Source: Methanomassiliicoccaceae archaeon (lineage in GTDB: Archaea > Thermoplasmatota > Thermoplasmata > Methanomassiliicoccales > UBA472). From it: a DNA stretch of 14,884 nucleotides. The number at the start of each line of letters is the position of its first letter. The first letter of the stretch is position 1. Below the pieces are notes generated by a model. The model ran no database searches, was not told where the DNA came from, and saw only the letters and a program-made list of their open reading frames with translations. A program made the position numbers and the translations under genes. Below, piece after piece: positions 1,006-14,317 of the stretch. Where the stretch lies: the NCBI GenBank assembly GCA_016919565.1, contig JACXTO010000047.1, positions 1 to 14,884 on the forward strand, given 5' to 3'.

Positions 1006-1668
1006 TCATTCCGAGGTCGAGAAATGATCGAGGTCGAGCTGTTTGCGCTTCGCCTCCACGACAGAAGCTTCGACGATGGCCTCGAACCACAGTTGCGCCA
1101 GGAGCTCGTTGGTATGGGCACGGTGGCACACCAGGCAGAGGGTCTTGAGGTTGGAAGGATGGTCACTTCCGCCACGCTCTCGGGGCACGATGTGATGCAC
1201 CTCGGTGAACCAGGTCGGGACACCTGCCAGGGGCTTGTTGCATTCTTGGCACTGGGACCCATCGCGAGCCAGGACACCTTGGCGAACCTCCTTCCATCCA
1301 AACGCCTTCAATGCCGGGGGCATGCTCTCATGGCTTAGATTCTCCCGACTGCCCTCATCGCTCCATCGCCCCTTCTCCTCAAGCGCCTTGCGGACCTCCT
1401 GCGAGATCAGGCAGCGTTTGAAGTCGAAGAGGGTGGGGTGTCGCTTTCCACACCGAACGCATCTACCTACATGGGAGGACCTTCCGCTCGCAACCTCCAG
1501 ACTGACCTTATGGTCCCATGCCCTGTGCTCGCAGTTCCTCTCGACGCCTGCGTCGCACATCCTGAGATCGGGCTCGCTGCCAAGTTCGCCTCCGACTATC
1601 CACGCATAATGCTCCCTTAGGCAAAGGGAGGCTCGGCGAGGGCGATCTTGAAAATGGCACCCGATCAT
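1006..1668 (-). CDS. HNH endonuclease domain protein with N-terminal zinc finger
   Basis: A 220-residue protein. The C-terminal half is an HNH nuclease: zinc pairs C140/C143 and C178/C181 bracket the motif E156-V-H-H159, N173 (PSNL) and H182 (VCHRAH), the usual ββα-metal layout of McrA-like HNH proteins that cut DNA. The N-terminal part carries a second cysteine/histidine group (C38, C46-x-H48, C70-x2-C73-G-K), probably a zinc ribbon used for binding. It stands alone, with no methyltransferase, intron or phage gene nearby, so defence, homing or repair roles are all possible. The ATG at 1668 has TTAATTTA about 28 bp upstream and no ribosome site, so a leaderless start is likely. An internal ATG at 1560 (MCDAGVERNCEH) would keep most of the finger and is an alternative. 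Confidence 0.75.
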   Translation of the reverse strand: MIGCHFQDRPRRASLCLREHYAWIVGGELGSEPDLRMCDAGVERNCEHRAWDHKVSLEVASGRSSHVGRCVRCGKRHPTLFDFKRCLISQEVRKALEEKGRWSDEGSRENLSHESMPPALKAFGWKEVRQGVLARDGSQCQECNKPLAGVPTWFTEVHHIVPRERGGSDHPSNLKTLCLVCHRAHTNELLAQLWFEAIVEASVVEAKRKQLDLDHFSTSE

Positions 1669-3815: not shown

Positions 3816-6197
3816 CTACACGCGATACTCCTTGACCTTCTCCGCCATTTCCGCCAGTCGTGCCTGGACCAGGAAGTTGATCGTCCCTTTGTCGAAGCTC
3901 CCGTCCGATTTGCGCTTCCCCGCTTTCATGCCAGTCAAGGTCTCGATGCCCTGCTCGATGCTCGCCACTGGATAGATATGGAACTTGCCTTCCCTCACGG
4001 CATCAACCACCTCTTCCTTGAGCATCAGGTTCTGAACGTTGCTTTGAGGCATCATCACGCCGTTCTTCCCATTGAGGCCGAGCAACTTGCAGACCTCGAA
4101 GTAACCCTCGATCTTCTCGTTGATCCCTCCGATGGCCTGCACCTCTCCCTTTTGATTCACAGAGCCAGTGACAGCGAGGTACTGCTTGATCGGCTTGTTC
4201 GCAAGCGCAGACAATATGGCATAGAGTTCGGTCGATGAGGCGGAATCGCCATCTACCCCCGAATAGTTCTGCTCGAAGACGAGCCTGGCCGTCAGGGAGA
4301 GCGGCTGGTCCCTGGCATACATCCCGTTCATGTAACCGCTCAGGATCATGACCCCCTTGGTGTGCGAGGGGCCGCTCATCTCCGCCTCTCGTTCAATGTT
4401 TACGACGCCGTCCATGCCTACGCCCACCGACGCGGTGATCCGGCTCGGCATGCCGAAGGCATAGTCCCCGGTCGACATCACGCTCAGCCCATTGACCTGG
4501 CCTGCCTTCTCTCCTGAGACATCAAGGATGACCAGGCCCTTGCCGATCGCCTCTTGGATCTTCTTCTGGATGATATTGGAGCGATAGACCTTCTCCTCCA
4601 ATGCCTGATTGATATGCTGCCTCTTGATCAGCTTGGCACGAGCGGTCTTCGCATAGAAGTTCGCCTCCCTGATCAGGTCGGCGATCTCCGAGAAAAGGGT
4701 CGACATCTTCGCCTTATCGTTTGCCAGGCGGGAGGAGTGCTCCACGACCGCCGATAGCGCACTAGGGGCGAGATGCAACAACTTCTCCTTCTGGCAGAGC
4801 GTGCAAACGAAATGTCCGTATTGGACGATGTTCGCCTCATTGCGTTCCATGCTGGTATCGAAGGCCCCCTTGACCTTGAACAGCTCTTTGAACTCCCGGT
4901 CGGCGTTGTAGAGGACCTCGTAGCTGTACGGATCGCCCAGGATGATCACCTTGGCATCGAACGGGATCGCCTCTGGCCGTAGGCTCTTGGTCATGATGTA
5001 CCCGAACTTCACCGCCGGGTCCTCGATCTCCAGCTTGCCGTTGGACAACGTTTGCTTGAGGCTTGGCCATGACAGGGGATCGCTGAACAGCCCCTCGACC
5101 GGGACAACGAGATAGCCCCCATTTGCCCGGTGCAACGCCCCCGCCCGGACCATGGTGTAATCGGTGTAGAGAGCCCCGAACCTTGCCTCCTTCTCCGTCG
5201 CCCCGAACAATCTGAAATAGGAGGGATTGGTCTCGATAACGACAGGTGCACCGACGGTCTTGGAATTGTCAACGATGAGGTTCACGGCATAGTTGTGAGC
5301 TGGACTATCTACCGTGATGGGGATGCCCATCGGTCCGGCCTGTTTCTGGTCCCCGGTCATTATGGCCGCGATGTTATCGAGGATGTTGGCCTGTACGTCT
5401 GCAAGGAACGCGATCACCTGCTCGAACGCGCCGAACTTTTCCCTCAGCAACGAGAGCCTGGGCTCAATGACGTACGTGGCCGCATCACGATTCAGCTTGT
5501 TCACTCGTTCCTCGGCCTCCCTGTCCAAATCTCTCATTTGGATGAGTCCCTTCTGAACCTCAGCCTGTAGCCCCTCCCGCTTGTCCTCGATCTTCTTCCG
5601 GTTCTTCGTCGGCATATTGGCCAATTGTTCCTCGGTGATCGGCTTCCCGTCCACAACCGGCACCAACAGCAGCCCGATCGGGGACTGGGTTATCTGGAAT
5701 CCAGCCTTCGAGGTCCTGCGGCTCATGTTCGCGACGAACTCCTTCCGCTTCTCGTCCAGACTGTGCAAGGCCGTGGTGCGCTGCTGCGAGTATTCGTTGC
5801 TCTCGAACGCTTCCCGAAGGCCCGTCGTCAGGCCAGAGACGAACTTCTCCATCTCCTTCTTCAGTTCCTCTCCCTTCCCGGCCGGTAGCCTCAAGGCCCG
5901 CGGGCTGGTGGGGTCCTTGAAGTTGTTCACATAGCACCAATCGTCCGGAGGTCCCCTCTCCTTGGCCAATTGCTCTATGAAGCTCACGATGGCGGTCTTG
6001 CGTCCCGTGCCTGGAAGACCGGCGACGAATATGTTGAATCCTGGATTCTGGATACGAAGGCCGAACTGCAGGGCTCGAACCGCCCGGTCCTGACCGATTA
6101 TCTCCATGAGGGGCGACAGCTCCTCCGATGACTTGCATTTGAACGTTCTCTCTGGGCAGATGTTGCGGCACTGCTCGGGCGTGAGTTCCTTGATCAT
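3816..6197 (-). CDS. Lon-like protease of the AAA_32/Lon S16 type
   Basis: A 793-residue protein with an N-terminal AAA+-like domain of the AAA_32 kind and a C-terminal Lon (S16) protease domain. The Walker A motif is GLPGTGRKT at 60-68. A long helical insert (about 105-270) separates it from the Walker B region. The catalytic dyad is S652 (DGDSAS) and K695 (GGINEK), 43 residues apart as in E. coli Lon S679/K722. A CxxC pair (C465, C468) lies after the AAA region. The Walker B strand reads YLVVPVEG, with no acidic residue at its expected end. No transmembrane helix is visible, unlike classical archaeal membrane LonB, so it is probably cytosolic and closer to YcbZ/LonC-like proteins. The start is taken as the ATG at 6197 with GAGGG upstream; the frame extends two codons further to a TTG at 6203. 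Confidence 0.85.
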   Translation of the reverse strand: MIKELTPEQCRNICPERTFKCKSSEELSPLMEIIGQDRAVRALQFGLRIQNPGFNIFVAGLPGTGRKTAIVSFIEQLAKERGPPDDWCYVNNFKDPTSPRALRLPAGKGEELKKEMEKFVSGLTTGLREAFESNEYSQQRTTALHSLDEKRKEFVANMSRRTSKAGFQITQSPIGLLLVPVVDGKPITEEQLANMPTKNRKKIEDKREGLQAEVQKGLIQMRDLDREAEERVNKLNRDAATYVIEPRLSLLREKFGAFEQVIAFLADVQANILDNIAAIMTGDQKQAGPMGIPITVDSPAHNYAVNLIVDNSKTVGAPVVIETNPSYFRLFGATEKEARFGALYTDYTMVRAGALHRANGGYLVVPVEGLFSDPLSWPSLKQTLSNGKLEIEDPAVKFGYIMTKSLRPEAIPFDAKVIILGDPYSYEVLYNADREFKELFKVKGAFDTSMERNEANIVQYGHFVCTLCQKEKLLHLAPSALSAVVEHSSRLANDKAKMSTLFSEIADLIREANFYAKTARAKLIKRQHINQALEEKVYRSNIIQKKIQEAIGKGLVILDVSGEKAGQVNGLSVMSTGDYAFGMPSRITASVGVGMDGVVNIEREAEMSGPSHTKGVMILSGYMNGMYARDQPLSLTARLVFEQNYSGVDGDSASSTELYAILSALANKPIKQYLAVTGSVNQKGEVQAIGGINEKIEGYFEVCKLLGLNGKNGVMMPQSNVQNLMLKEEVVDAVREGKFHIYPVASIEQGIETLTGMKAGKRKSDGSFDKGTINFLVQARLAEMAEKVKEYRV

Positions 6198-6238
6198 CAA
6201 CAATTCCCTCGCTGTCGAAGCATTGTACTGCCCCCCTT

Positions 6239-6244
6239 GTAAAA
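6239..6244 (-). promoter_or_regulatory. Possible TATA-like box of the Lon-like gene
   Basis: TTTTAC on the minus strand, about 44 bp before the ATG, which would give a leader of roughly 20 bases containing the GAGGG site. It lies in the 130 bp divergent gap shared with the winged-helix gene. Confidence 0.3.
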
Positions 6245-6296
6245 CCTACTGTTGGGCTCCAACAATTGTAAAGAGAGCGCCAGCCTCAGCAAGAAG

Positions 6297-6302
6297 TATT
6301 AT
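6297..6302 (+). promoter_or_regulatory. TATA-like box of the winged-helix protein gene
   Basis: TATTAT, centred about 28 bp before the ATG at 6328, which has no ribosome site. It supports that start over the open frame extending further upstream. Confidence 0.45.
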
Positions 6303-6327
6303 CCTCCCGAATGGCGATGAACCGGTA

Positions 6328-7341
6328 ATGGCAGGCAAGCGGAGTCCCAAGAAAAGCCCTGGCAAGGACCTCTATCCCGTCAAGTCGGCGATCGTAATGC
6401 GATTGGCTCAGAGCCCGGTAGGCCGCTCGGGTCTATTGGCGGAGCTGAAGGAGCAGGGCCACGACGATCGGGTGGTGACTCAGACCCTGAACGAGCTCGT
6501 CAAAGGTGGCTCGGTAATGATGGACGGGGCTAAGAAGGGCAAGCTCAGCCTGCGCCAGGACTTCCCCACCTTCAAGATGATCTTCGGTCTTTGTGCCGCG
6601 GATGGGAAGGAGATCGATTTCTTGGCAACGAATTTCTCGAAATCGATCCTCAACGATGACATCTTCCCGGTACTGGCAAAAGAGTTCGTCCGCTCGGCCA
6701 TCCTCTCCACACTTCTTCTCCTTACGATCTCGCCCGTCGACCGGGCCAAGAACTCATCAATGCTCTTGCTCCACAGGACGGTCTACAGCGACCCCCAAAC
6801 CTCAGCTGCCATCCAGGGGATCGCCGGATCGCTGGAGGCGATCGGGTTCAATGAGGCGCTGAAGAAGAGCTTGGCCGGTCTGAAGACCAAACAGGAGAGG
6901 GATTCCGAGACCTATTCAAAACTGGAACAGATGGCCGAGGAGTACTTGACGCGCTTCCTTGGCAACTCGACGCCGCTGCAATCGGCGCTGGTCGGTTGCC
7001 AATCGCTATTGTTCCCGGAGAAGGAGAGGGCGGAGATGCTCGAGATACTGCGAGGCTCGCCGTTCGCGCTCAGCTTCCTCCTGGCCAACGAGGACAGGTC
7101 CCAGGGGACCGTCATGTCGATCGTCACCCCTCTGCTGTTGCCCGCGCTGGAGCATATGTTCACGCTATTCGCCCTGTTCAAGCTGTTCTCGGCCTCCGAC
7201 GTTGAAGCCTATATCGAGAGCAAGAAGAAGAGGGCCGACAGGGAGTTCCTCGAGGTCATAGAGAGGCATAAGGCAGGAATGCAGCAGCCCTCGCACCTCC
7301 TGCAGGCCCTCCGCTCCTGTCGCATGGCCGATATGCCTTGA
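6328..7341 (+). CDS. Unrecognised protein with N-terminal winged-helix-like domain
   Basis: A 337-residue protein I cannot assign to a named family. Residues 14-78 look like a winged helix: YPVKSAIVMRLAQSP, then GRSGLLAELKEQG, a recognition-type helix DRVVTQTLNELVKGG, and a short wing (MMDGAKKGKLSL). The rest is mainly helical, with a hydrophobic helix at about 120-135 (AILSTLLLLTIS) and another near 268-292 that is too broken to be a sure membrane span. A charged helix (ESKKKRADREFLEVIERH) closes the protein. The ATG at 6328 is chosen because of the TATA-like box; the open frame before it is antisense to the start of the Lon-like gene. It is divergent from that protease with 130 bp between them, so it could regulate it, but nothing in the sequence proves this. 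Confidence 0.7.
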   Translation: MAGKRSPKKSPGKDLYPVKSAIVMRLAQSPVGRSGLLAELKEQGHDDRVVTQTLNELVKGGSVMMDGAKKGKLSLRQDFPTFKMIFGLCAADGKEIDFLATNFSKSILNDDIFPVLAKEFVRSAILSTLLLLTISPVDRAKNSSMLLLHRTVYSDPQTSAAIQGIAGSLEAIGFNEALKKSLAGLKTKQERDSETYSKLEQMAEEYLTRFLGNSTPLQSALVGCQSLLFPEKERAEMLEILRGSPFALSFLLANEDRSQGTVMSIVTPLLLPALEHMFTLFALFKLFSASDVEAYIESKKKRADREFLEVIERHKAGMQQPSHLLQALRSCRMADMP

Positions 7342-10503: not shown

Positions 10504-11346
10504 TCACCGTACGAATGTGCCCTTCCTGAGCTCGAGAGAGGCAGTCTCCAGTTCTTCCTCGGTGTTCATAACAATGGGGCCTCCCCAGGCCACTGGCTCA
10601 TGGAGCGGTTCACCGGAAGCCAACAGGAATCTCGCTCCTTCTCGGTCGGCCTCAAGGCTCACATCCTTATCGTCCGGGATGATGGCCAGCTGTCCCGCCC
10701 GGGCTTTCGATCCATCATCTGCGGAGATGCTGCCGCGGAAGACATAGGCGAAGGCGTTCCTTCCCCTCTGCACCCGGTGGGCGAATCTGCTCATGCCCGG
10801 CATTTGGACATCGAAATAATCGACGGGGACGACGATGTCCTTGACCGGCCCCACCGTGCCTGCCAACGTTCCTGCGATGATCCTGACCTCAACATCATTC
10901 GCCAGCTTCACGCTAGGAATCATCTTGGAAGGGATCTCCCGATAGCGCGGCGGCATCAGCTTGTTCTCCCTCGGAAGATTAATCCAGAGCTGGAAGCCCT
11001 GGAACATGCCATCGAAAGGTTCGGGCGTCTCTTGATGTAAGATCCCTCTTCCGGCAGTCATCCATTGAACGTCGCCGGACCGGATGGTTCCCTTGTTGCC
11101 CAGATTATCCCGGTGATTGATCGTCCCGGATATCATGTAGGTCACCGTCTCCATCCCCCGGTGCGGGTGCTCCGGGAACCCTGCAAGGTAATCGGCCGGG
11201 TTGGAGGAATGGATGTCGTCAAGCATGAGGAACGGATCGAGTCGCTCGATCTGGTCATGACCGAATACCCGATAAATGCTGACCCCCGCTCCATCCCGTG
11301 TCTGTCTTCCGGTGAGCACCTGTTCGAGTGATCGGTTCTGAGCCAT
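10504..11346 (-). CDS. Pirin family protein (bicupin)
   Basis: A 280-residue two-cupin pirin, the usual size for the family. The N-terminal cupin has all metal ligands: H60 and H62 in EHPHRGMETVTY, and H104 and E106 in GRGILHQE, matching the Fe site of human pirin (H56, H58, H101, E103). Pirins are non-heme iron proteins; some act as quercetin dioxygenases and others as redox-sensing protein partners. The true role here is unknown. The ATG at 11346 has CTTATA on the minus strand about 28 bp upstream and no ribosome site, so it is likely a leaderless transcript. It is on the same strand as the flavoprotein gene but 128 bp downstream of it with its own promoter. Confidence 0.9.
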   Translation of the reverse strand: MAQNRSLEQVLTGRQTRDGAGVSIYRVFGHDQIERLDPFLMLDDIHSSNPADYLAGFPEHPHRGMETVTYMISGTINHRDNLGNKGTIRSGDVQWMTAGRGILHQETPEPFDGMFQGFQLWINLPRENKLMPPRYREIPSKMIPSVKLANDVEVRIIAGTLAGTVGPVKDIVVPVDYFDVQMPGMSRFAHRVQRGRNAFAYVFRGSISADDGSKARAGQLAIIPDDKDVSLEADREGARFLLASGEPLHEPVAWGGPIVMNTEEELETASLELRKGTFVR

Positions 11347-11474: not shown

Positions 11475-12971
11475 TCATGGCTCGAAGGAGAGCCCTTCGG
11501 TGAGATCGGTCGATGATAGCATCGCACCTCGGTTCAGCAGGTCTTCGGGGTCGAAGAGTTGCTTCAATTCTTGGAACGCCTGATAGGTCCGTCTGCCGAA
11601 CTCCTCGATGAGGAACGGTGCTCGGTTCCGCCCCATACCATGCTCCCCTGTCATGCTGCCCCCATGGCTGAAGGTAATTCGAAGGCATTCCGAGGCCAGG
11701 CGCCGAAGCCTTTCCTGCCATCCATCGCTTGGCACCAGGGGGCGCACATGGACGTTGCCTTCGCCCACGTGACCGTAGATTATCACCATCAACCCCTCCT
11801 TCTCGAACAGGCGCATTATGTCATTGACGAATGGTCCAAGTTGACCAACTGGCACCGCCAGATCATCAGCGAACGGGATAAAGCGGTGTTGGTCATCCTC
11901 ATAGGCCCGCCGGATGCGCAACAGCATCTCCCCCCTCATTCTCCATAGCGAGGACCGCCGTTCTGGCTGCGCTATCTCGATGGTTCGGATCGATCTGAAG
12001 GCGAGCATCTCCATCAGTGCTTTCCCAGCTTGAACGGGGTCCTCATCGAACTCAATAATGAGGGATGCTCTGGTCTCCTCGGGCAAGTCCCATCCTGCCT
12101 TGATCAGCTCCTTGGTGCCATAAGCATCCATGAGCTCCAGGGAAGACGGTCGAAGGGCCAATATCTCTGGCACCGCCTCGCAGGCTTCCTCCAGCCCATG
12201 GTGCAGGGAGAGGAAGAGGGATTTTTGGCTCGGGGCAGTGATGAGCTTCAATTCCACTTCCGTCAGGATCCCCAATGTCCCGACCGAACCCGACATCAGA
12301 TGCACCAGCATCTTCCCTGGTTCTTCGTTCTCCAGGATGGCCGGGAGATTGTAACCGCTGCTGGATTTCACACCCTTGCGGGCCTTGAATGTCGCCAGGA
12401 TCTCCGAGTCCTCCTGGAATTCACTCTTGAGCCGCATCAGGCCCTGCGCCAGCTCTTCAGGCAGTACCTCCCTGGAATCGAGGATTCCGAAGCGAGGGTT
12501 GAACAGCCGAACCGATCGCAGCCATCGGTCGACGCTGCCATATTTGACCCCCCTCAGGCCTGTGGCATTGGTCGCCACGTTCCCTCCTATGGTGCAGAAC
12601 GAGCTGGAGCTCGGGTCATAGGGCACGATCGAGCCCAAGGCCTGCGCTCTCTTCATGAGGGCGCCGTGCCATACCCCGGTCTGGACCAGGGCGATCTCTC
12701 GATCGACCATGATGATGGCATTGAGCTTCGTTGTACCAAGGATCATCCCCCTTCCTACCGCGGATCCAGATTGATTTGAGCCGCCTCCACGGGCGGTGAT
12801 CACCACGCCGCGTTCATAGGCCATCTTGGCCGTTCGGATAAGCTCCCCCTCGTTGGATGGCATCGCCACGCACGTGGGCCTGATCTTGTAACCGCTCATG
12901 TCGCCGCTGAAGCGGGTCAGGGTGCGATCGTCGGTGAGAACATCCAGTGGTCGATTCTCATTTCGGCTCAA
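11475..12971 (-). CDS. FAD-linked 2-hydroxyacid dehydrogenase (GlcD / D-2-hydroxyglutarate dehydrogenase type)
   Basis: A 498-residue flavoprotein of the GlcD/D-lactate dehydrogenase/D-2-hydroxyglutarate dehydrogenase group. The FAD-binding PCMH domain shows ARGGGSNQSGSA at 60-71 and PYDPSSSSFCTIGG at 117-130 followed by NVATNATG. The C-terminal FAD-oxidase domain carries H401 and H408 (GHVGEGNVH) and E443 (TGEHGMGR), the residues that bind the active-site metal in D-2-hydroxyglutarate dehydrogenase. There is no C-terminal iron-sulfur domain, so electrons must leave through a partner such as ETF or quinone. The start is a TTG whose last bases overlap the TGA stop of the upstream gene (TTGA), so translation is probably coupled. 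D-lactate and glycolate are alternative substrates; the upstream gene makes D-2-hydroxyglutarate an attractive guess. Confidence 0.88.
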   Translation of the reverse strand: MSRNENRPLDVLTDDRTLTRFSGDMSGYKIRPTCVAMPSNEGELIRTAKMAYERGVVITARGGGSNQSGSAVGRGMILGTTKLNAIIMVDREIALVQTGVWHGALMKRAQALGSIVPYDPSSSSFCTIGGNVATNATGLRGVKYGSVDRWLRSVRLFNPRFGILDSREVLPEELAQGLMRLKSEFQEDSEILATFKARKGVKSSSGYNLPAILENEEPGKMLVHLMSGSVGTLGILTEVELKLITAPSQKSLFLSLHHGLEEACEAVPEILALRPSSLELMDAYGTKELIKAGWDLPEETRASLIIEFDEDPVQAGKALMEMLAFRSIRTIEIAQPERRSSLWRMRGEMLLRIRRAYEDDQHRFIPFADDLAVPVGQLGPFVNDIMRLFEKEGLMVIIYGHVGEGNVHVRPLVPSDGWQERLRRLASECLRITFSHGGSMTGEHGMGRNRAPFLIEEFGRRTYQAFQELKQLFDPEDLLNRGAMLSSTDLTEGLSFEP

Positions 12972-14317
12972 GCTTGGGTCCCCTTGTAGGTCAATGGGTT
13001 GGTAGCTTTGATGATCGCGCTCACCGAGCTTTGGTTGAAGCCTTTGAACCCGCTCGCTCGCTGCGTCAGTTCCATATGACTCCCCAAAGCTCCCTTCTTT
13101 TCCATCATATCGATCCAGTCCTTCTCGACTCGACCCGAGTCTCGAATCTGCGTCGCCCTTAGACCATCAACCGACCATTCCTCTCCGACCGTGAACAGCT
13201 GGCGCAGGAAAGGGAAGTCCGAGAAGGGCGTCATGCTCCTTACGCCGCTTTCCGAAAGCGATTCTCTCGCCCGATCGAAGTCCACTCGAACGGCCATATG
13301 ATGCATTCCAGCCTGAAGGAGGCTCTCACCATGCAAAGCGACCCACAGGCCGACCGTCCCAAGCTGTTCCGTTTCTGGGAGTGGTCGGTGAGCGAAGTCA
13401 CCTGAATTCTCTTTTGGGAGCAAGTCCACATCGGCGAATACGATCCTTGATGCGATGGGGTGTTCCATGACCTGTGCCCCCCATCCCGCCACATCACCAG
13501 CATAGAATTTTTCCCTGGGCTGAAAACCCATCACCTCCAGCAGATTGATCAAGCGATGGAAGTGAAGGCGCGAGCATCGGAACGTGAGGTGATCTTGGTT
13601 GGCCCACCCCAATCCAAGCTCGTCCTGAACCATTTGCTGCACTCTAGCGGCGGAATTTCGCGATGACCAGTATTCGATTTCGCTTCGAGCGAATGCATCC
13701 GCCAGGCGGGGTGGGTCCAAGCCTGATCGGAGCTCGGCGATCAGTCCTTCTATGGCATGGATGCCGTCTTCGTCCGGCTTTCTATCTCTGACACGCCTGC
13801 GAAGCAACCCCAGCGCGCTCTCATACTCGCTTGCATCATCCGAATGCCCCATGTCGAACCCATCATATCCACGTCTCTCTACCGCGATCAACCTGCCTGA
13901 TTTCATCTCTAGAACGCTCAATCGTCGAAAAGGCGCGAAGCGCTCGCCCTCCGCCTCCCGCGGCACGGACCACACCGATCGGAACACATCGACGTCGTCA
14001 ACCTTCAGAGCAAGTTCAGTTTTGCCATCATGGAACCTGAGCGGGAAAAGATCGGTGCCCGGCGCATGGAATACATCTCTTCCTTTGTCAATTTCCACGA
14101 AACCGTGCTTTGCCAGCTCGTCCCCATCCAGCATTTCTTGTGGCAACGTTAGATGGTCCACCCAATCGAAGAAACGGGTGGACGAGACGGCCTCGATCAT
14201 CGTGGCAACCCTCTCTGCCTGAGGACACAGGTCGATGAACCAATCTATTAGCTGATGCAGATGCTTGTCCGCTTCCGGTGCGAGTGACCAATCGAAGGAG
14301 CTCAACCCAATCGCCAA
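12968..14317 (-). CDS. Putative HglS/DUF1338-like dioxygenase with an extra N-terminal domain
   Basis: A 449-residue protein. Residues 210-440 resemble the DUF1338/HglS group of VOC-fold 2-oxoadipate dioxygenase/decarboxylases: a helix SRNSAARVQQMVQ, then D242-H243-LTF-R247, a strand/loop VMGFQPREKF, AGWGAQVMEHP and RIVFADVDL. Next come H339/H340 in GMHHMAVRV and E416 in SHMELTQRASGF. As I recall it, HglS uses two His and a late Glu as metal ligands, with an Arg four residues after the first His; all are present here. Residues 1-200 are extra and contain a second DHLT (54-57) followed by a VOC-like run, so the protein may hold another VOC module. The start is a TTG with GAAGG upstream and CATAT about 27 bp before; no ATG fits the frame before residue 40. 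It overlaps the flavoprotein start, forming an operon. Motif-based; other VOC dioxygenases remain possible. Confidence 0.55.
   Translation of the reverse strand: MAIGLSSFDWSLAPEADKHLHQLIDWFIDLCPQAERVATMIEAVSSTRFFDWVDHLTLPQEMLDGDELAKHGFVEIDKGRDVFHAPGTDLFPLRFHDGKTELALKVDDVDVFRSVWSVPREAEGERFAPFRRLSVLEMKSGRLIAVERRGYDGFDMGHSDDASEYESALGLLRRRVRDRKPDEDGIHAIEGLIAELRSGLDPPRLADAFARSEIEYWSSRNSAARVQQMVQDELGLGWANQDHLTFRCSRLHFHRLINLLEVMGFQPREKFYAGDVAGWGAQVMEHPIASRIVFADVDLLPKENSGDFAHRPLPETEQLGTVGLWVALHGESLLQAGMHHMAVRVDFDRARESLSESGVRSMTPFSDFPFLRQLFTVGEEWSVDGLRATQIRDSGRVEKDWIDMMEKKGALGSHMELTQRASGFKGFNQSSVSAIIKATNPLTYKGTQA

Follow-up and report, generated by a model that had tools for sequence, protein, structure and literature searches.

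A two-module VOC-fold protein, probably HglS-like, paired with a GlcD-type flavoprotein in a Methanomassiliicoccaceae archaeon

The gene pair and its conserved residues

The window analyzed here, 14,884 nucleotides long, is the entire contig JACXTO010000047.1 of the archaeal assembly GCA_016919565.1 (a Methanomassiliicoccaceae archaeon; 1.06 Mb, 63% complete; G000 below). Near its right end, on the minus strand, lie two genes, both of them real: an open reading frame (ORF) at 14317-12968 for a protein of 449 residues, which we call F, and an ORF at 12971-11475 for a GlcD-type flavoprotein of 498 residues. A preliminary description of this sequence had presented the pair as a fused unit with a TTGA overlap; the ORFs do overlap by these four bases, but they are two genes and not one fused protein. 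A 70%-identical relative occurs in G002, on the contig of Methanomassiliicoccaceae archaeon isolate fen_33, and a gene overlap of the same length recurs in fen_33 and in the Thermoplasmatota genome G127. The features of the pair are listed below, where invariance refers to 41 of 41 full-length homologues.

12968..14317, minus strand: F, VOC-type, 449 residues, a probable 2-oxoadipate dioxygenase/decarboxylase (HglS-like) of a new family (homologues, conservation, AlphaFold, Foldseek)
13712..14317, minus strand: N-terminal module of F, residues 1-202, VOC-like, resembling the start of short HglS proteins (hhalign, model strands and helices)
12971..13711, minus strand: C-terminal VOC module of F, residues 203-449, predicted to be catalytic (model, Foldseek, hhalign, conserved residues)
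13589..13591, minus strand: H243, predicted first metal ligand, in a DHxxFR motif (invariant)
13577..13579, minus strand: R247, predicted distal-carboxylate arginine, counterpart of HglS Arg74 (invariant; HxxxR spacing)
13298..13303, minus strand: H339-H340, of which H340 is the likely second metal ligand (both invariant; H340 opens strand 340-344 in the model)
13070..13072, minus strand: E416, predicted third metal ligand, in an ExxxR motif with R420 (invariant; in strand 410-419)
11475..12971, minus strand: GlcD-type FAD-dependent D-2-hydroxyacid dehydrogenase, probable oxidizer of the product of F (domains, relatives, pairing)

Conservation was assessed on 44 loaded F sequences, from which three were dropped (one cut by a contig end and two divergent paralogues); four further F loci, where the ORF picker missed F, lay outside the set. 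Eight residues (D242, H243, R247, H339, H340, H414, E416 and R420) proved invariant in all 41 remaining sequences. The DHxxxR pattern, the histidine pair and the late glutamate had been picked out in the preliminary description; their codons are where it placed them, and because H243, R247, H339, H340 and E416 do not vary among full-length homologues, their presence is not a matter of chance. The two paralogues, both from the planctomycete sample described below, have lost part of this set: L095 (8962-10155, genome G530) is without R247, H339 and H414, and L096 (9097-10320, genome G494) is without H339, H340, H414 and E416. G530 also encodes a full-length match to PF07063, the Pfam model of HglS.

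Searched against Pfam at E values up to 10, F gave no match, and against NCBIfam no model passed its cut-off, the only signal being a sub-threshold match to methylmalonyl-CoA epimerase. One of ten F members showed a weak Pfam Glyoxalase match, while the C-terminal modules of eight members, compared with NCBIfam including its HPPD models, again returned only the sub-threshold epimerase model. A PF07063 profile search of G000 found nothing. By these searches of Pfam and NCBIfam, on which its novelty in the libraries rests, F is apparently an undescribed family that is a sister of PF07063 and not a member of it. Among the open-licence papers listed as literature matches there was no description of the F family or of HglS in archaea, and the word "archaea" is absent from the main text of PMC7286885.

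Fold and comparison with HglS

AlphaFold modeling of F, with nine sequences, gave two successive VOC-like modules (pLDDT 82.7, pTM 0.86), with the predicted ligands H243, H340 and E416 on strands 241-247, 340-344 and 410-419 of the second; the first module is not expected to bind metal. When the full model was compared with the PDB by Foldseek, the top match was hydroxymandelate synthase (HMS; 2r5v, E = 3.5e-9), followed by HPPD at about 1e-8, and the DUF1338 protein YdcJ (2rjb) stood at rank 32 of the 50 matches listed (E = 6.2e-6). The C-terminal module alone matched HMS (3.9e-5), HPPD (1.6e-4) and the DUF1338 protein 3lho (2.3e-4, with the highest TMq of the 50 matches listed), as well as methylmalonyl-CoA epimerases. 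An unrelated family as best match of this half, which the preliminary description had said would speak against its proposal, was not what Foldseek returned. In the available text of PMC7286885, 3lho is named as a DUF1338 structure and HglS was named in 2020 the third intramolecular 2-oxoacid oxygenase, after HPPD and HMS. The fold matches of the modeled F would therefore cover all three known enzymes of this kind.

We compared the motifs of F with those of short PF07063 proteins from the planctomycete sample. The latter carry DHxAFR, NHFT and EFAxR..F.GF..SA..IF, which the DHxTFR, HH and ExxxR..GFKGFN..SV..II of F resemble. In hhalign local mode the N-terminal module of F scored 32.6 against 14 short PF07063 proteins, where 30 scrambled controls (one of them a reversal) reached at most 18.1; the C-terminal half scored 25.4 over 181 columns, with controls at or below 21.6, and its alignment brought the catalytic DHxxFR and ExxxR motifs of F and short HglS into register. 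In the portion of PMC7286885 available, the HxxxR of HglS is H70/R74, with the same spacing as H243/R247, and the histidines of Pseudomonas putida HglS are at positions 70 and 226, a spacing of 156. The corresponding spacing in F is 97, and among the 10 of 14 PF07063 proteins that fitted the pattern used it is 124-125 in eight short proteins and 155 in two others. It had been a worry of the preliminary description that this interval is shorter than in HglS; it is indeed shorter, and the worry is not a serious one given the range within PF07063 itself.

Set beside the HglS/DUF1338 family (PF07063, with P. putida HglS, E. coli YdcJ and rice FLO7), F thus has in common the HHE triad, the HxxxR arginine and the VOC fold, and some of its loci are likewise linked to lysine or aminotransferase genes and to a D-2-hydroxyacid flavoprotein. 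It differs in having no PF07063 match, in its shorter His-His spacing and in about 200 extra N-terminal residues that form a VOC-like module, and it resembles PF07063 in profile and fold comparison only.

Distribution, gene neighborhoods and the flavoprotein

Counting the centre genome, F matches were present in 4 of 61 near relatives (the match in G024 being weak and partial) and in 7 of 389 genomes sampled from the window's phylum (one being a fragment of 33 residues). In our planctomycete sample, which comprises 392 genomes of the phylum to which a Rhodopirellula record belongs, 49 had F and 31 had PF07063. Named records that encode homologues extend beyond Thermoplasmatota to Micrarchaeota, Thorarchaeota, Acidobacteriota and Planctomycetota, and identity to the window's F is 37-45% for members from outside its genus. 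In a tree of 41 sequences the seven from Thermoplasmatota formed one group (100/98), and the nine from archaea required two label changes; because several branches are long, places in this tree are unsure.

We examined 48 F loci over up to about 9 kb on each side, contig ends permitting and with one duplicate locus excluded; 35 of them came from 34 of the 49 planctomycete-sample F genomes, the other 15 genomes being outside the set. Within 5 kb of F there was a GlcD flavoprotein in 9 loci, a class I/II aminotransferase in 9 (weak in L092, with 25% identity, on the opposite strand and 2.3 kb away), a lysine-dehydrogenase-like (LysDH-like) gene in 8, a piperidine-6-carboxylate (P6C) dehydrogenase in 7 and a class III aminotransferase in 2, such that 26 loci (25 without L092) had at least one of the five. 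In L094 an aminotransferase, P6C dehydrogenase, LysDH-like protein and F are together, and in L076 an aminotransferase, F, a corrinoid adenosyltransferase and GlcD stand in a row. The one P6C dehydrogenase scanned, that of L085, reached equivalog level (810.9 bits against a cut-off of 730), and the class III aminotransferase fell below the 2-aminoadipate transaminase cut-off (296 against 650 bits). The LysDH-like neighbor has saccharopine-dehydrogenase domains and matches 3abi, which we take to be L-lysine dehydrogenase. Among the 19 planctomycete-sample F genomes with an over-cut-off P6C dehydrogenase, 12 have the P6C gene 1.4-1.5 kb from F in divergent orientation; these cases are not independent because several of the genomes are close kin.

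The structural matches raise the alternative that F is an enzyme of the HPPD/HMS type, acting on an aromatic 2-oxo acid. HMS and HPPD head the Foldseek results, and like them F has two VOC modules, a predicted metal site in the second, catalytic one, and a Glu ligand near the C-terminus. In contrast, no HPPD model matches F, its modules are oriented differently (rmsd near 20), and its invariant HxxxR arginine suits an acidic substrate; moreover, the recurring neighbors are lysine and amino-acid genes, and among the neighbor proteins scanned, a small part of the total, there was no homogentisate-pathway or other aromatic-catabolism gene. We regard this alternative as very improbable.

That the downstream gene encodes a GlcD-type flavoprotein, as first described, was borne out by the presence of FAD_binding_4 and FAD-oxidase_C domains. 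Its nearest solved relatives are LctD, glycolate oxidase, D-lactate dehydrogenase and D-2-hydroxyglutarate dehydrogenase, with which it shares the motifs GHVGEGNVH and GEHG (H401, H408, E443). It differs from these enzymes in scoring well below every NCBIfam equivalog cut-off, the figure for the D-2-hydroxyglutarate dehydrogenase model NF049975 being 145 against 1350 bits, a weak test because the model describes YdiJ, a much longer protein. The substrate-carboxylate residues of human D2HGDH, presumably R386, T390 and K401, are partly kept, since alignment with 6lpn showed one arginine retained and the positions of T390 and K401 not. D-2-hydroxyglutarate would be its substrate by virtue of the pairing with F. 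In four other Thermoplasmatota loci the partner of F is 35-75% identical to the window flavoprotein (one being a fragment), but identity falls to about 24-25% for the partners in Micrarchaeota and in two planctomycete-sample genomes; because these GlcD partners are so divergent, F and GlcD may have been paired on more than one occasion.

Proposed reaction and the methanogen setting

The explanation that we favor, and consider fairly probable, is that F is an HglS-type 2-oxoadipate oxygenase whose GlcD partner oxidizes the product to 2-oxoglutarate. On this view the two VOC-fold modules of F would make up an intramolecular 2-oxoacid oxygenase that depends on Fe(II). Iron would be bound in the C-terminal module by H243, H340 and E416, and R247 would hold 2-oxoadipate by its far carboxylate; with O2 as the driver, the substrate would be decarboxylated and hydroxylated to D-2-hydroxyglutarate, as happens in HglS, and this product would be oxidized to 2-oxoglutarate by the overlapping flavoprotein. 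What the data show directly is the structure of the genes, the homology among F proteins, the conservation of residues, the class of fold and the recurrence of certain neighbors; the metal, the use of O2, the substrate and the product we infer. In bacteria with lysine genes beside F, 2-oxoadipate would come from lysine via 2-aminoadipate, and F could fill this step of lysine breakdown in some planctomycetes. The route from 2-oxoadipate through D-2-hydroxyglutarate to 2-oxoglutarate is the best reading for the family as a whole, and F seems to add another sequence family to the intramolecular 2-oxoacid oxygenases, one for which Pfam and NCBIfam have no model.

A number of results weigh against this assignment. 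With respect to sequence, PF07063 matched neither 10 F members nor 8 C-terminal modules, and F is missed by every HglS and HPPD model in Pfam and NCBIfam. Long HglS proteins showed no profile match to F, and global-mode runs yielded little or nothing, such that, with a match in local mode only, homology to HglS is likely but remote. With respect to fold, TMq was 0.22-0.29 in 49 of the 50 full-model matches listed, with rmsd mostly near 20, from which it follows that the modules are placed differently from those of HPPD; the C-terminal module folded alone gave a weaker model (pLDDT 67.3, pTM 0.67), and even the highest TMq of its 50 listed matches, that of 3lho, was a low 0.47.

With respect to genomic context, 22 of the 48 loci have none of the five neighbor types, and a LysDH-like protein was absent from all five further planctomycete-sample F hosts tested. 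The proposal that F goes with P6C dehydrogenase at the level of whole genomes was rejected (19 of 49 genomes with F against 130 of 343 without it, in the 392-genome sample, where 149 of 151 over-cut-off genomes were typed), and this linkage shows only as adjacency. Mutual exclusion of F and PF07063 in planctomycetes is suggestive only (1 of 49 against 30 of 343, one-sided p = 0.08). Finally, in the window's own genome, in fen_33 (G416) and in G005, we found neither a heme-copper oxidase nor cytochrome bd, no LysDH-like protein (which was not found in the Micrarchaeota genome G417 either) and no over-cut-off P6C dehydrogenase.

These three genomes are the ones among the nine archaeal F hosts in which mcrA (PF02249) was found, the other six giving no such match. 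Of the nine hosts, G099 alone gave a heme-copper oxidase match and G417 alone a cytochrome bd match. G099 was also the only host with an over-cut-off P6C dehydrogenase, and together with G418 it had a LysDH-like match at 34-38% identity, with weaker matches in G077, G087 and G127; a whole lysine route is thus credible in G099, as it is in some bacteria. Since the searches for both entry enzymes were negative in the mcrA-bearing archaea, and since G005 is 99% complete, only the last two steps of the route are seen there, and it is by inference that 2-oxoadipate is the substrate in the window's lineage. The 2-oxoadipate route of the preliminary description finds backing in the GlcD pairing and in bacterial lysine neighbors, although no lysine-entry enzyme was found in the window's own lineage; its HglS assignment stands in motifs, fold and structural matches, and not as membership of PF07063. 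In its substance the idea was right, though its details were incomplete: F probably works like HglS while forming a family of its own.

Since no lysine-entry gene was found in these three genomes, it is reasonable to ask whether archaeal F uses the same mechanism on another substrate, 2-oxopimelate or some other 2-oxo acid, and so supplies the flavoprotein with a different D-2-hydroxy acid. The same fold and ligands would serve, the solved structures most similar to the flavoprotein are of lactate and glycolate enzymes, and its score on the D-2-hydroxyglutarate dehydrogenase model is low (although, as noted, that model is of YdiJ). Methanogens also make 2-oxopimelate and 2-oxosuberate, according to the available part of PMC3087415. 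On the other hand, R247 and the other catalytic residues are identical in F members that lie beside lysine genes, and in the available text of PMC7286885 HglS was active on 2-oxoadipate only among seven acids that included 2-oxopimelate. On balance we consider a different substrate unlikely.

Methanogens are normally oxygen-avoiding, and the methanogen setting is the surprising part of the finding: an O2-dependent step is unexpected in a lineage that has mcrA and in which neither terminal oxidase sought was found. The same circumstance would suit a non-oxidative VOC enzyme of the epimerase or lyase type, which would need no O2 in an anaerobic host, and the weak similarity to methylmalonyl-CoA epimerase around residues 319-361, together with the epimerases among the C-module Foldseek matches, is consistent with it. 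However, that sequence similarity is confined to about 45 residues, the two-module layout, the HxxxR and the C-terminal ExxxR..GF motif are of the HglS/HPPD type, and F members beside lysine-catabolism genes share the same active-site residues. A non-oxidative F is thus very unlikely.

If F is the 2-oxoadipate oxygenase that we favor, its presence in mcrA-bearing archaea raises the question of what role a dioxygenase has in a methanogen. Coenzyme B synthesis passes through 2-oxoadipate (PMC3087415, in the part available) and would be one candidate source in the window's lineage. It is conceivable, but in our view doubtful, that an operon which consumes O2 has been retained in a methanogen lineage to burn this coenzyme B intermediate back to 2-oxoglutarate. 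If this were so, the pair would form, with the chain-extension enzymes of coenzyme B, a cycle removing O2 or recycling surplus precursor during brief exposure to air, and a branch of the intramolecular 2-oxoacid oxygenases that had not been named before would carry out an O2-dependent metabolic step inside a methanogen.

One further gene lies close to the pair, 128 bp downstream on the same strand:

10504..11346, minus strand: Pirin-family cupin protein, kept in fen_33 (L005 10893-11735)

Pirin-family proteins are iron-binding and O2-linked; a link of this gene to the pair is unproven. On the fen_33 contig, the protein encoded at L005 2216-3583, some 4.4 kb upstream of F, reads by eye like a DNA photolyase, hinting at exposure to light and air. 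Upstream of F, and on its strand, there is a deoxyribonuclease IV-like gene in L064 (where it was scanned) and, by clustering, in L068, L069, L071 and L082, and in four of these five loci a class I/II aminotransferase stands between it and F. Related HNH-endonuclease genes occur in the window (1006-1668, minus strand), on the same contig as F, and in G005 (L057 8538-9311), where the gene precedes F by about 107 bp and lies on the opposite strand. Lastly, a 411-residue ORF at 6106-7341 on the plus strand of the window, which has no Pfam match, is conserved in fen_33, where it adjoins LonB- and FtsZ-type genes.

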